Positions 39,503 through 60,855 of a stretch of 64,000 nt of DNA are shown piece by piece. Source of the DNA: Bacillota bacterium (lineage in GTDB: Bacteria > Bacillota > UBA4882 > UBA8346); the NCBI GenBank assembly GCA_029553165.1, contig JAKPCT010000193.1, forward strand, positions 1 to 64,000, read 5' to 3'. The position numbers were made by a program, and so were the translations under genes. Each line of letters starts with the position of its first letter. The first letter of the stretch is position 1. The notes under the pieces are model-generated. The model worked only from the letters and a program-made list of their open reading frames with translations. It made no database searches and was not told the DNA's origin.

Positions 39503-40858
39503 ATGAAACGCTTGATTATCATTTTAAGCTGTTTGTTTTTAGTATTTTCCGGTCTTATTGTCTATAAAGTCAAAGTTAACCTTGATCAGAAAGCGGCTTT
39601 GACAAGTCAGTCTGGTCAACAAGGTCAAGGTGGACGTGGCGGCCGGGGACGAGCTGATAGAGGAGCTGTTGTCAGAGTTCAGGCGGCTAAACGGGAAAGC
39701 ATTGTTGAGACTTTACGGGTAGTCGGAGAGATAACGCCAGATGTGGAAATACAGATTCAACCCCGAATCAACGGGCGGTTAATCTCGTTGTTGGTTGAGG
39801 AAGGACAAGAGGTTAAAGCCGGTCAGCTGGTTGCCGTTATGGATGATGAGAATATTCGTCTCCAAATCCAACAGAGTGAAGCGAATATAGCAACTTATCA
39901 GGCTAATCTGCGTCAGGCAGAATTAAATCTTGCCAAGGCCAAAACAGAGCAAGAACGTTACTTAGAATTGTTAGAAAAAAAGTATATTCCGCAACGGGAC
40001 TATGATAATGTGGAGAGTGCTTACTTATCGGCAAATACTGCCGTAGAAGTTTTAAAAGCTCAATTAAGCGGGGCACAGAAGAATCATCAATTATTAAAGT
40101 TACAGCTAGAACAGACCAAGATCGTTAGCCCGGCTACCGGGTATGTACTGAAGAAGCATGTATCGGTCGGTATGAATCTGACAACCGGTACGACTATTTT
40201 TACAATCGCTGCTTTAAATAATGTTAAAATCAAGTTTTCGGTTGATCAGAGAGAGGCTGCAAAGATCAAGAAAGATACGGAAGTTCGGTTTTTAACCGAT
40301 GCTTATCCGGGAGAGGTTTTTGCAGGAAAGATAAAGGAGATTGCTCCAATTTTTGATTCGCAAACACGGGCGTTAACCTTTTCGGTGTTAATTTCTAACC
40401 CTAATTTGAAATTAGTCCCGGGAATGTTTGGTACGGCCGAGGTTGTAGTTGGAGAAAATGTTGATTCAATTGTTGTACCCCAGGATGCTTTAGTCCAACA
40501 AGAGGGCAAACAGGGTGTCTTTATTGTCACTCCCGAGCAAACTGCCAAGTTTACCCCTGTTACTACCGGAATTACGGCAGAAGGCCGGATGGAAATCCTT
40601 AATGGTTTAGATGAAGGAGATTCGGTAGTTGTTGTCGGCCAAAACGTCCTGAAGGATGGCCAGTCAGTTCAGATTTTGGAAGGTCGCCCAACCAAAGCCG
40701 GTAATTTTCAACCAGGTCAAAACAGCGGGAGCAAGACTAAACCAGAATTCAACAATAAAAAGAACGAACGGTCGGAAAAAGGACCTGACTTTAACAGAGA
40801 ACGGAGGCAGGGTTCCGAAGGTGAGCGTTCTGCCCGTAAGGGGGGTAGCGCTCAATGA
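39503..40858 (+). CDS. RND efflux membrane fusion protein (HlyD/AcrA family)
   Basis: Periplasmic adaptor of an efflux pump. The 451-residue product has an N-terminal membrane anchor (residues 1-22), a Gly/Arg-rich spacer, the lipoyl half-motif INGRLISLLVEEGQEVKAGQ, a coiled-coil hairpin (IQQSEANIATYQANLRQAELNLAKA), the second lipoyl half VSPATGYVLKKHVSVGMNL, and the beta-barrel domain. The last 60 residues are a charged, Asn/Lys/Arg-rich tail of unusual length. It overlaps the pump gene by 4 bases (ATGA), so translation is coupled. The partner is the RND-TolC fusion that follows. Confidence 0.93.
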   Translation: MKRLIIILSCLFLVFSGLIVYKVKVNLDQKAALTSQSGQQGQGGRGGRGRADRGAVVRVQAAKRESIVETLRVVGEITPDVEIQIQPRINGRLISLLVEEGQEVKAGQLVAVMDDENIRLQIQQSEANIATYQANLRQAELNLAKAKTEQERYLELLEKKYIPQRDYDNVESAYLSANTAVEVLKAQLSGAQKNHQLLKLQLEQTKIVSPATGYVLKKHVSVGMNLTTGTTIFTIAALNNVKIKFSVDQREAAKIKKDTEVRFLTDAYPGEVFAGKIKEIAPIFDSQTRALTFSVLISNPNLKLVPGMFGTAEVVVGENVDSIVVPQDALVQQEGKQGVFIVTPEQTAKFTPVTTGITAEGRMEILNGLDEGDSVVVVGQNVLKDGQSVQILEGRPTKAGNFQPGQNSGSKTKPEFNNKKNERSEKGPDFNRERRQGSEGERSARKGGSAQ

Positions 40859-43800
40859 GAATAACAGCCTTTTGTATCCGGCGTCCGGTTACGACCACAA
40901 TGCTTTTTTTAGGGATGATCTTATTAGGGGTAATGAGTTATTATCGCTTACCGATCGATCTCTATCCGCAGATCACTTTTCCGGCAATCAGTGTTTCAAC
41001 TTCGTATTCGGGCGCCGGCCCGGAAGAGATTGAACAACTGATCACCATCCCGGTTGAGCAGGCGTTATCTTCGATTAATAAAGTAACAACGATCACGTCA
41101 GTTTCGCAGGAAGGCAGTTCGCGGGTTACAGTTAACTTTAACTGGGGGACTGATCTGGATGAGGTTACCGATGATATTCGGGCAACTTTAGATCGGTTAA
41201 GCCGGCGACTTCCTGATGACGCCGGGGCACCAAGCTTATTTAAGTATGATCCTTCGGCAATGCCCTTGATGACAATCGGCTTGTCAGGAAAAGTAGCGGA
41301 AACCGTCTTGCGTAGTTTTGCCGATGATGAGCTCAGTTTTCGACTGCAGCGCGTTGACGGAGTTGCCGGAGTTGATGTACGGGGAGGCCGCAGCCGTCAA
41401 ATCAGGGTAGCCCTTCGGCAAGACCGTCTCCAAGCGTTGGGGTTAACGATTGATCAGGTTATCAGTTCGATTCGGAGTTCCAATGTTACCCAGCCTGCCG
41501 GAAATATAACCTCAGGTACAATGGATTTTCTCTTAAGGACCAAAGGAGAGATTAAGGAGGTTGCACAACTCCACAAAATTGTTGTTGCGCAGCGAGACGG
41601 GGTTCCCATTTTCTTAAAGGATATTGCTGATATTCTGGATGATGCCGAAACAGTGCGTTCTTTGGTTCGGATTGATGGAAATCCTGGAATAGTATTGTCA
41701 GTTCAAAAAAAATCGGGATCGAATACCGTTGCTGTTGCTGATGCGGTCTATAAAGCATTGGATAATATTAAACGTCAGTATCCGGAGTATAACATCCGGA
41801 TTCTCAATGATAATTCGACCTTTATCCGGCAATCTGTGTCCGGAGTGGTTAATTCGCTTATTTCCGGAGGTATTTTAGCAGCGCTAATTTTACTGCTCTT
41901 CCTGCATAATATCAGAGCAACGGTGATTACCTGTATTTCAATGCCGATTGCGATCTTAGCTACATTTATCTTAGCTTATTTTGGGAATATGACTTTAAAC
42001 ACGATTTCCTTAGGGGGATTAGCACTAGGGGTCGGGATGCTGGTTGATAACTCGATTGTTGTTTTGGACAATATTTTTCATAAATTTAACCAGGAAGGCC
42101 TAACCCAATCCGAAGCGGTGCTTCAAGGGACTGAAGAGATGGGTTCGGCGATTATTGCATCTACCTTGACGACAATTTGTGTTTTTTTTCCGTTGGTTTT
42201 TTTATCAGGACGAACCGGAATCATCTTTAAAGAACTATCATATATGGTGACATTTTCACTACTTTGTTCGTTAGGGGTTGCGATCACTTTAATTCCAATG
42301 TTATGTGCTAAATTCCTTAAACCCCGTGATTTTAGTGAAGAAGTACATGGCATTGTCAAGAAATTGCTTGAGGTCCAACAGCGATGGGATGAAACTTATC
42401 GCCGGATCTTAACTGCTGCTTTGAAGCATAAGACGGCAGTAATTCTTGGCTGTGTTGGTCTATTTGGATTAATATTATTACTGTGGCCGTTATTAGGAAC
42501 GACGTTAGTCCAGCAAGCTGATGAGGGTGTGATCTCTATCCGGATTGATCTACCGATCGGTACCAAGCTGGAGGAGACTGACCGGATAACTTTAAATATG
42601 GAACAAATAATCCGGGATACCATTCCTGAATTGGATAACATGGAAGTTTCAGTAGGAAGTGGCTGGGGTGGTTCCAATGTTAATCGTGCTACGATCACTG
42701 TAAGATTAACCGAACGTAAAAACCGGCAACGGACAACAGCACAAGTAATTGCTGATTTACAACAACGGTTAAAATTTCCTGGAGCCAGAATCAGAATTTA
42801 TGCTCCCAGTAATATGCGGATGCTCTATGGTGGTTCACAATTCCCGATTGCGATCGATGTCCGGGGGCATGATCCGGAACTCAGCCGCGAGGTTGCCAAT
42901 TTGGTTGTTGCTAAGATCAGTGATATCCCTGGGATTTCCAATGCCAGTATTTCACGTGAGGAGGAACGTCCGGAATTGGTGATCGAAGTCGATCGGGAAC
43001 GGGCTGCTGATTTGGGAATTACCGCTGCCAAGATTGGTGATACCATTCAGGCAGGGATTGAGGGAAAAGTAGCTACAATTATCAGAAGAAGCGGTCAGGA
43101 GATTCAAGTAAAAGTCAATTTACAAGATTCTGATAAGCAGTCGGTCCAAGACCTGGGAAGAATCATGATTGCCGGTAACGGCGGAATTGTGGTACCCCTT
43201 TCCAGTATTGCAACGATTAGAAACTCCAGTGGTCCGGTAGCGATTGAACGTAAGGACCGGGAGCGAAATATCACCGTAACTGCGAGTTTAGACCAACGGG
43301 ATCTATCAAGTGCGATGCAGGATATTCAATCAGAGTTGGGTCAGTTAAAACTGCCCCAAGGGGTCAATCTGGTCTATGCCGGGGATTATGAAGAACAACA
43401 AAAAAGTGCGAAAGAGTTATTCGTCACGATCTTGTTATCATTGGCGTTGGTTTACATGGTGATGGCCTCGCAATTTGAATCGATTCTGGACCCTTTATTA
43501 ATTATGATTTCGGTTCCGTTTGCGCTTGGAGGTGTAATTTTAATGTTATTCTTAACCGATACCGCGATTGACAATCAGGTATATATTGGCTTGATTATCT
43601 TAGGTGGCGTGGTGGTTAACAATGCGATTGTAATGATCAGTTATTTCCGGCTGTTAATGGAGCGAGGAATTGATCTCAAGACAGCAGTTATTGACGGTGC
43701 TGCCAGTCGTTTGCGGCCAATATTTATGACCACTGCGACGACCGTTTTAGGGCTGGTGCCATTAGCGCTGGGAATCGGAGAGGGATCAGAGTTACAAGCG

Positions 43801-45303
43801 CCAATGGCCCGGACAGTTATTGGAGGATTATCATTCTCAACCATTTTGGTCTTAATTATCATTCCGCTCTCTTTCTATGCTTTAGAAGAATTTCTTGTTA
43901 AATTTCGGCAGCGGTTTGTCAAAAAGACGGTTAATATCAGTGTGATTATCTTTCTTCTAGTAGGATTAACGTTATTAATTACTGGTAATCCTGCTCAAGC
44001 TGAAACTCCTGAACAATTATCGATCAAAGAAGCTGTCACCTTGGCCCTTGAAAACAGTGAAGACGGGCGGATCATTCTCCAAAAACAAGCCAGTGCCGAA
44101 TCCAGTTACCGGGAGACCATGGGAAGTAAAGGGTTTCAGCTTTATTCACAACTGGAAACAACCAGTGATGATGATAAGCACTCCAGTACAATCAGTTTAA
44201 ATGCGGAGAAAAAAGTTCCCGTAGCAAACTTGTTGGGAATTCAGTCATTATCGGACCAAGTTGCTGCTTATAATCTAAGACGGGATTTATTAGCTCTGGA
44301 TATTGAGAAACAAAATTTGATTTATCAAGTGATCAAGGCTTACCAGGACGTATTATTAGCCAAACGCGATCTGGATATTGCTACTCAGTCGTTTCAGAGA
44401 GCCGAGCGATTTTATGACGAGGTCCTGACGCGTTCCAAATTAGGGTTGACCAGTATTACCGATGAGATGGGCGCGGCAACCCAGGTTGCCAATGCCAAAA
44501 CCAGCTTGGCGCGGAGCCGTCATAAATATAATTTGGCTAAATTGAAGTTTTGCCAATGGCTAAACATCGATCCGGCTAAGGAGTTGGAGTTGGTCGAACC
44601 AAAAACCCAGTTTGGAAATGATGAGTATCAAAATTTATTAAATGAAGCTTTAGCGAAACGGATTGAGTTAGAAAAGGCGCAAGTGGAGAAAGAAAGTGCC
44701 GCAACGCTTTTAAAGTTGGCGAAACGCTCCGAACAGCTTGGAATAACTTTGAGTTGGGATTTTGAGCGGGAACATGCTGTTGCGGGTCTCAGTTTATCGA
44801 ATTTAGGCCGTGACAATTCAGTTGGCGAATGGCAGATTGGTACCAATGCCAAATTGATGTTGAGTGACCCGGAAGATTCGAAGCGTGATGACTATTCGGA
44901 CTGGGGAAAAGTGAAATTGGTGTTCCATTGGACCTTTTTTGATGGCAATGTCCGTAAAGAGCGAATCAAGCAAGCGCAGTTACTGGTTGCCCAACGGGAT
45001 GAAGCTGTAAAAAAGACAGAAAAAACCGTTCAATATAGTGTTGAAGAAGCTTACGGCAATATTATGAATCAGGCTGATAATTTACAAAGCAGTGAATTAC
45101 AGCTGAAATACAATCAGTTATTATTGGAGTCCACTGAGGCCAAGCTGCGCAGTGGACTGGCTTCGGTAAAAGATGTTTTAGACGCCCAAACTTCATTGGC
45201 AAATGCTGAAGCCGAGTATGAAAAGAGTAAGACTTCTTACTACCTGGCGTGGATCGAGTTATTGTTGGCTACGGGTAATTTGAAGCTGGAGAATCTGGAA
45301 TGA
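40855..45303 (+). CDS. RND efflux pump fused in frame to a TolC-like outer-membrane factor
   Basis: A 1482-residue reading frame. Residues 1-1022 or so are a full HAE1-type RND pump: start RITAFCIRRPVTTTML, TM4 LALGVGMLVDNSIVVLDNI (proton-relay Asp398), porter and docking domains, second-half TM region GLIILGGVVVNNAIVMISY. Residues 1025-1049 form a hydrophobic stretch ending NPAQA, which reads like a signal peptide with a cleavage site after Ala1049. Residues 1050-1482 are a TolC-type factor: two repeats of long helices (EAVTLALENSEDGRI; RSKLGLTSITDEMG; RSGLASVKDVLDAQTSLANA). These parts are normally separate genes. The 4-base overlap with the adaptor makes a two-gene tripartite pump. No stop, and no clear internal ribosome site, is seen at the joint. 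Confidence 0.9.
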   Translation: MRITAFCIRRPVTTTMLFLGMILLGVMSYYRLPIDLYPQITFPAISVSTSYSGAGPEEIEQLITIPVEQALSSINKVTTITSVSQEGSSRVTVNFNWGTDLDEVTDDIRATLDRLSRRLPDDAGAPSLFKYDPSAMPLMTIGLSGKVAETVLRSFADDELSFRLQRVDGVAGVDVRGGRSRQIRVALRQDRLQALGLTIDQVISSIRSSNVTQPAGNITSGTMDFLLRTKGEIKEVAQLHKIVVAQRDGVPIFLKDIADILDDAETVRSLVRIDGNPGIVLSVQKKSGSNTVAVADAVYKALDNIKRQYPEYNIRILNDNSTFIRQSVSGVVNSLISGGILAALILLLFLHNIRATVITCISMPIAILATFILAYFGNMTLNTISLGGLALGVGMLVDNSIVVLDNIFHKFNQEGLTQSEAVLQGTEEMGSAIIASTLTTICVFFPLVFLSGRTGIIFKELSYMVTFSLLCSLGVAITLIPMLCAKFLKPRDFSEEVHGIVKKLLEVQQRWDETYRRILTAALKHKTAVILGCVGLFGLILLLWPLLGTTLVQQADEGVISIRIDLPIGTKLEETDRITLNMEQIIRDTIPELDNMEVSVGSGWGGSNVNRATITVRLTERKNRQRTTAQVIADLQQRLKFPGARIRIYAPSNMRMLYGGSQFPIAIDVRGHDPELSREVANLVVAKISDIPGISNASISREEERPELVIEVDRERAADLGITAAKIGDTIQAGIEGKVATIIRRSGQEIQVKVNLQDSDKQSVQDLGRIMIAGNGGIVVPLSSIATIRNSSGPVAIERKDRERNITVTASLDQRDLSSAMQDIQSELGQLKLPQGVNLVYAGDYEEQQKSAKELFVTILLSLALVYMVMASQFESILDPLLIMISVPFALGGVILMLFLTDTAIDNQVYIGLIILGGVVVNNAIVMISYFRLLMERGIDLKTAVIDGAASRLRPIFMTTATTVLGLVPLALGIGEGSELQAPMARTVIGGLSFSTILVLIIIPLSFYALEEFLVKFRQRFVKKTVNISVIIFLLVGLTLLITGNPAQAETPEQLSIKEAVTLALENSEDGRIILQKQASAESSYRETMGSKGFQLYSQLETTSDDDKHSSTISLNAEKKVPVANLLGIQSLSDQVAAYNLRRDLLALDIEKQNLIYQVIKAYQDVLLAKRDLDIATQSFQRAERFYDEVLTRSKLGLTSITDEMGAATQVANAKTSLARSRHKYNLAKLKFCQWLNIDPAKELELVEPKTQFGNDEYQNLLNEALAKRIELEKAQVEKESAATLLKLAKRSEQLGITLSWDFEREHAVAGLSLSNLGRDNSVGEWQIGTNAKLMLSDPEDSKRDDYSDWGKVKLVFHWTFFDGNVRKERIKQAQLLVAQRDEAVKKTEKTVQYSVEEAYGNIMNQADNLQSSELQLKYNQLLLESTEAKLRSGLASVKDVLDAQTSLANAEAEYEKSKTSYYLAWIELLLATGNLKLENLE

Positions 45304-45381
45304 GACCTATGGATTATTGTTAAATATTAATTTTTGTATGATAATAATAGTAAGGGAATCATTTTAGGCAGGGATGTTCAA

Positions 45382-45876
45382 ATGATTAACTTTAATAGTC
45401 GAATTAGTTTTGGCCCAAATCAAGCTCATTACCCACAAAATAATGCTGCAACGAATACCATGGCTCAAATCAATCAAGACACTAATTTTGGTGCGGGCTT
45501 GATCAAAAACAATGCAGTATCAACCAAGCTGTCGGAACAATTGCAGGTGAAAGAGTGTCCAACATGTAAAAACCGGCAATACCAGGATGACTCGGATGAT
45601 CCTGGTGTGTCGATGCAGACACCGACGCGGTTGGATCCAAGTAATGCAGCGGCTATGGTTACATCTCACGAACAGGAGCATGTGGTCCGGGAGCAAGCAA
45701 AGGCTGCTGAAGAAGGCCGTAAAGTAGTTATGCAGAATGTAATAATCCATACAGATGTTTGCCCCGACTGTGGCAGAGTGTATGTATCAGGAGGAGAAAC
45801 GACTACAGTTACCAAGCCCAAGGATAACAACTCTGATCTAACAGGTATTGGTAAGTTATTAGATATGTTGGTATGA
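45382..45876 (+). CDS. Small HEXXH protein with paired CxxC motifs, putative metalloprotease-like
   Basis: The 164-residue product has a Gln/Asn-rich N-terminus, a CPTC pair (Cys59, Cys62), an HEQEH motif (residues 96-100, the HEXXH zinc-protease pattern) in a helix followed by VVREQAKAAEEGR, and a CPDC pair (Cys127, Cys130). The two CxxC pairs could hold a zinc ion. The HEXXH segment resembles that of SprA-related proteins, but there is no further support. A purely structural role is possible. The ATG at 45382 follows a GGCAGGGA site; an upstream start at 45334 lacks one. It stands alone downstream of the efflux operon and ends at a strong terminator. Confidence 0.6.
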   Translation: MINFNSRISFGPNQAHYPQNNAATNTMAQINQDTNFGAGLIKNNAVSTKLSEQLQVKECPTCKNRQYQDDSDDPGVSMQTPTRLDPSNAAAMVTSHEQEHVVREQAKAAEEGRKVVMQNVIIHTDVCPDCGRVYVSGGETTTVTKPKDNNSDLTGIGKLLDMLV

Positions 45877-60575: not shown

Positions 60576-60649
60576 TGGGGGATCGTCTAGTGGTAGGACA
60601 ACGGGTTCTGGCCCCGTCAGCGAGGGTTCGAGTCCTTCTCCCCCAGCCA
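60576..60649 (+). tRNA. tRNA-Gln (anticodon CTG)
   Basis: A full 74-base cloverleaf: acceptor TGGGGGA / TCCCCCA, discriminator G, encoded CCA, anticodon stem ACGGG / CCCGT with a seven-base loop whose anticodon is CTG, T-loop TTCGAGT. It reads CAG codons. With GatCAB and GltX in the window it is likely to be charged with Glu and then amidated. Confidence 0.95.
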
Positions 60650-60779: not shown

Positions 60780-60855
60780 GGTCTTATCGTCTAGAGGCCT
60801 AGGACACCGCCCTCTCACGGCGGAGACACGGGTTCGAATCCCGTTAAGACTACCA
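60780..60855 (+). tRNA. tRNA-Glu (anticodon CTC)
   Basis: A full 76-base cloverleaf: acceptor GGTCTTA / TAAGACT with G1-U72 pairing, D-arm GTCT / GGAC, anticodon stem CCGCC / GGCGG around loop CTCTCAC (anticodon CTC, codon GAG), T-stem ACGGG / CCCGT with TTCGAAT loop, discriminator A and encoded CCA. A hairpin terminator follows at 60866-60889. It is the one normal copy in a run of four tRNA-Glu-related copies. Confidence 0.95.

Follow-up and report, generated by a model that had tools for sequence, protein, structure and literature searches.

In the usual teaching, the pump and the channel of a tripartite efflux system come from separate genes and are brought together by an adaptor. In AcrAB-TolC, MdtABC and MexAB-OprM, which combine an RND pump, an HlyD-type adaptor and an outer-membrane factor (OMF) with the TolC fold, the pump and the OMF are encoded by separate genes, and the OMF has its own start and its own N-terminal signal peptide. 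The stoichiometry of the AcrAB-TolC complex is 3:6:3. In FbcH of Bradyrhizobium japonicum, cytochromes b and c1 are produced as one precursor, which is cut at an internal signal peptide. Here, we analysed a stretch of 64,000 nucleotides (the window) that, like the three efflux systems, encodes an RND pump, an HlyD-type adaptor and a TolC-fold OMF, but with the pump and the OMF in one reading frame. The product is very probably a tripartite-pump polyprotein that signal peptidase I cleaves near A1049|E1050, yielding pump and channel in a 1:1 ratio.

The gene (40855..45303, + strand) is a single open frame of 1482 aa from its ATG, without internal stops, and encodes an RND pump, a predicted internal signal peptide and a TolC-type OMF; ten relatives are built alike. 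The sequence-only reading had described an RND pump and a TolC-like factor in one frame, and both the open frame and the Pfam domains ACR_tran and OEP agree with this description. The RND permease part (residues 1-1009; 40855..43881, + strand) is AcrB/MdtB-like and carries a full-length ACR_tran domain at residues 4-1009 (profile positions 2-1019 of 1021, 881 bits, E 1.4e-264); its best match in the PDB is MdtB (9lyq, E 1.2e-117). This part belongs to none of the named NCBIfam subfamilies (CusA/CzcA, RND_permease_1/2, MdtB/C, AcrB and others), all of which score below their cut-offs, the best being NF033617 with 732 bits against a cut-off of 1250. The predicted mature OMF (residues 1050-1482; 44002..45300, + strand) matches the Pfam OEP family in two stretches (118 bits), the better of which lies at residues 1259-1474 (E 5e-34), and its profile aligns with TolC residues 8-409 (E 5.3e-37). 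Additionally, a model of residues 985-1482 was built with AlphaFold from an alignment of separate OMFs from other phyla. In this model, which is of moderate quality (mean pLDDT 74.6, pTM 0.65), the OMF has a TolC-like fold with two helices of ~70 residues each, and Foldseek matches it to Escherichia coli TolC (1ek9) with a TM-score of 0.79 by target length and a probability of 1.00. Thus, two OEP repeats and the TolC fold, the hallmarks of the TolC/OEP family, are both present.

The adaptor of the predicted tripartite pump is encoded in the same operon, directly upstream. It is a periplasmic HlyD/CusB-type membrane-fusion protein of 451 aa (39503..40858, + strand; Pfam HlyD_D23, E 3.7e-28), and in the window, as in six relatives, the stop codon TGA of its gene and the ATG of the fusion gene overlap by 4 nt (NTGA). 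The overlap is 1 nt (TGATG) in G021, and a gap of ~63 nt is found in G015. The 4-nt overlap (39503-40858 with 40855) suggests translational coupling of the whole pump. The layout would also fit a stoichiometric logic, the fused pump and channel being needed 3:3 and the separate adaptor in six copies. Directly after the fusion gene lies an open reading frame of 180 aa (45334-45876) whose HEQEH motif and two CxxC pairs recall a metal-binding or metalloprotease-like protein; a Pfam search with this protein gave no matches. Two tRNA genes were identified with Rfam further along the + strand (60576-60646 and 60780-60852).

On the same contig, just outside the window, a second operon encodes an OMF, an adaptor and an RND pump as three genes (G000:C83, ~74503-80104; L128:10504-16105, − strand). 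It has the same three components as the fusion locus; however, its OMF, of 451 aa, has its own N-terminal signal sequence, unlike the fused one. With fused and three-gene operons on one contig, the organism uses both layouts.

The joint between the two proteins reads EEFLVKFRQRFVKKTVNISVIIFLLVGLTLLITGNPAQA|ETPEQLSIKEAV (43885-44040) and has the three regions of a signal peptidase I substrate. The loop that follows TM12, VKFRQRFVKKTVN (residues 1015-1027; 43897..43935, + strand), is basic, K/R-rich in all 11 fusions and predicted to be cytoplasmic, and would serve as the n-region. The putative hydrophobic core, identified by hydropathy and as a helix in the AlphaFold model, spans residues 1028-1043 (43936..43983, + strand) and is followed by the c-region GNPAQA (43984..44001, + strand), at the end of which, after A1049 (44001), signal peptidase I is predicted to cut. 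In the model, the TM12 helix leads into the basic loop, which lies between two helices, then into the helix 1028-1043, a low-confidence segment (1044-1051) and the TolC-like fold. Each of the 11 joints contains 5-10 K/R residues, a 12-residue core with a mean hydropathy of 2.4-3.4 and Ala at position -1, and the joints end in NPAQA, HPAVA, PGTA, PVRA, PMEA, RPAWA (two), SPCSA, HTARA, PTEA and YPGYA. The residue at -3 is small in all fusions except G006 (Met, atypical), and the exact cut position is ambiguous in G005 and G015. The n, h and c features are thus kept despite sequence drift, the pattern of a signal peptide that would be selected for function and not for sequence. A simple signal-peptide scan of the whole proteins could not tell the joint and ordinary transmembrane helices apart, so that the case rests on comparison and not on a predictor score. 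One such comparison is with TolC itself: residue 8 of mature TolC aligns with residue ~1062 of the fusion, which places the predicted cut after residue 1049 within ~5 residues of the mature TolC N-terminus. The signal-peptide-like character that the sequence-only reading had ascribed to the joint is therefore supported by the n/h/c features, by this alignment and by the AlphaFold model, and further by the Ala-Gln joints of Bacteroidota described below.

Of the 29 genomes of the class, 11 have a frame that stays open across the joint. Eight of these are intact frames of 1481-1509 aa, namely, the window and seven found by searching 60 relatives with the OMF part: G005, G006 and G009 from the same family, and G013, G017, G020 and G021 from the same class. 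In G015 and G019, the frame crosses the joint and then reaches the contig end, and in G002 (L126, G002:C90), it crosses the joint and the OMF part is broken ~65 residues in, at 1731-1855, either by a sequencing error or because the gene is a pseudogene. Contig ends interrupt the locus in two more genomes, G008 and G014. Identity to the window is 56-59% for the RND part, 36-48% for complete OMF parts and 17-35% for the joint. In the 29 genomes, all RND homologues that are at least 55% identical to that of the window are fused or cut by contig ends; the remaining ones, at most 41% identical, either stand as separate genes with frames of 1015-1072 aa or are fragments ended by a contig edge. Outside the fused frames, no OEP domain of the class is encoded in a frame longer than 588 aa.

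An error of assembly or a false frameshift could in principle have created the fusion, as could pseudogene decay in which a stop codon was lost, and the genome is a draft of 303 contigs with 7.27% contamination. However, the fusion recurs at ~57% identity in ten further genomes, which belong to three families of the class, and there the domain lengths are kept and no stops occur. The same open frame in these ten genomes rules out assembly error as the cause, and we consider the probability of an artefact or pseudogene to be negligible.

When 71 RND domains were placed in a tree, the fused pumps of the class formed one clade with a support of 100; the clade comprises the ten class sequences counted as fused, nine of which cross the joint, with G008 cut by the contig end. 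The single clade indicates one origin. Most simply, the fusion would have arisen once, in or before the class, and would have persisted while the sequences diverged to 55-60% identity. The sequence-only reading had named related genomes as the test of the joint; there, the joint persists, and the two parts are never separate genes within the pump clade. In a sample of 399 genomes of the phylum, none of the OMF relatives outside the class is fused, no fusion was found among 80 wider RND relatives, and a plasmid search with the OMF alone returned only ordinary TolC genes. The closest free OMFs of the phylum that we inspected (G029 and G298) belong to MacAB-like and not to RND operons, as judged by eye from the translations. 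Two other long RND frames were noted, one of 1389 aa with ~320 additional residues at the C-terminus (L037:3073-7239) and one of 1415 aa with additional sequence inside the RND part (L045:374-4618); both lack an OEP domain and were rejected as fusions.

A free OMF could also be made separately, by internal initiation on the same mRNA, for example, at a GTG codon (Val1030, 43942), in which case the open joint would be incidental. As the sequence-only reading had stated, this GTG is the only in-frame start near the joint of the window, and a little internal initiation might occur there in this strain; in-frame ATG, GTG or TTG codons are also present in the joint region of some relatives. However, Val1030 has no Shine-Dalgarno sequence in the 20 bases upstream, again in line with that reading, and a start at this codon would drop the KK n-region. 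Moreover, G020 and G021 have no in-frame ATG, GTG or TTG from TM12 to the mature OMF, and internal initiation is thus not the general mechanism. Across the joints, the positions of candidate starts are not conserved, the only Shine-Dalgarno-like match is AGGA in G019, and no candidate start has a good Shine-Dalgarno sequence. If initiation were internal, an upstream stop would be expected in some of the 11 diverged genomes, but the absence of a stop codon, first noticed in the window, extends to all 11 joints. Internal initiation is therefore very unlikely to be the source of the OMF.

Processing of the joint is further supported by a second set of fusions, from Bacteroidota plasmids. These RND-OEP fusions of 1451-1469 aa are annotated only as CusA/CzcA family proteins (for example, WP_013768944.1 and WP_264563277.1); seven of them (L165-L170 and L172) have a complete OMF domain, which is absent from their annotation, and an internal, signal-peptidase-like A|Q site. 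The two that we scanned score 1205-1220 bits with TIGR00914 (CusA/CzcA), above its cut-off of 701, whereas the RND part of the window scores 516 and falls outside the TIGR00914 clade. In the 71-domain tree, all seven lie in a clade separate from that of the window, which has a support of 100. Given the TIGR00914 contrast and the separate clades, the Bacteroidota fusion is independent. The uniqueness of the architecture that the sequence-only reading had implied does not hold, since these CusA/CzcA pumps are built alike. According to the Q-rule, most substrates of signal peptidase I in Bacteroidota carry Gln as the first residue downstream of the cleavage site (PMC5837995). Ala-Gln is found at the expected joint position in all seven Bacteroidota fusions, two pairs of which are near copies, leaving approximately five independent observations; by chance, AQ would occur in the 15 residues there in ~10% of proteins. 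This is strong support for the RND-OMF joint being a real processing site in Bacteroidota, and by this parallel it supports the view that the joint in the class of the window may also be one.

The fusion could also function uncut, as one 160 kDa protein that spans the periplasm and keeps the pump and the channel tied together. Cleavage is predicted here, and a permanent tether would likewise fix a 1:1 ratio; however, the Ala that all 11 fusions of the class have at -1 and the A|Q of Bacteroidota point to a protease site, and the geometry is unfavourable. In assembled AcrAB-TolC, the adaptor and the periplasmic part of the pump still lie below helix H1 of the OMF. H1 itself is in the equatorial domain, half-way up the 100 Å helical barrel (PMC8277102). 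The fusion has only ~10 residues (less than ~45 Å) between the signal helix and H1, and with H1 so far above the inner membrane, an uncut chain would be too short for the OMF to take its place. We thus regard a permanent tether as highly improbable. With both an internal start and an uncut chain very unlikely, release by signal peptidase I remains.

Under release by signal peptidase I, the RND pump would be translated first and its 12 transmembrane helices inserted, leaving its C-terminus as the cytoplasmic basic loop. Residues ~1028-1043 would then act as a second, internal signal peptide that loops through Sec and brings the OMF into the periplasm, where signal peptidase I, of which the genome encodes four homologues, would cleave after A1049; the pump would keep a short 13th membrane segment, or this segment would be degraded. 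The freed OMF would enter the BAM pathway, reach the outer membrane and trimerise. Insertion of OMFs needs Omp85, which is encoded in all 29 genomes of the class. The adaptor encoded directly upstream would rejoin the OMF to the pump, and the assembled complex is predicted to have pumping activity. Each round of translation would supply a pump and a channel together, in the 3:3 proportion that these two parts have in the 3:6:3 complex.

We found no description of either fusion in the openly accessible literature that was searched. Processed pump-channel polyproteins are probably an undescribed, convergent way to build tripartite pumps with a fixed 1:1 ratio, which arose at least twice, in the diderm class of the window with a multidrug-type pump and in Bacteroidota with a CusA-type pump. 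Such polyproteins, in which each channel is dedicated to one pump, are natural cases for testing pump-channel specificity. Furthermore, whole lineages have an OMF gene that is hidden under the annotation "RND permease", so that both the number of OMFs and the partners predicted for them are wrong there.

To place the locus among known systems, the CusA/CzcA fusions of Bacteroidota share with it an RND part followed by an in-frame OMF, a signal-peptide-like joint that ends in Ala and an adaptor encoded by a separate neighbouring gene. They differ in their heavy-metal CusA/CzcA RND part, in their Q-rule site and in gene order, the fusion preceding the adaptor in Bacteroidota, whereas the adaptor precedes the fusion in the window. 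FbcH resembles the fusion in its order of parts: a multi-pass inner-membrane protein comes first, then a cleavable internal signal peptide, then an exported protein. However, both halves of FbcH stay in the inner-membrane bc1 complex, whereas the second half of the window protein is predicted to reach the outer membrane.
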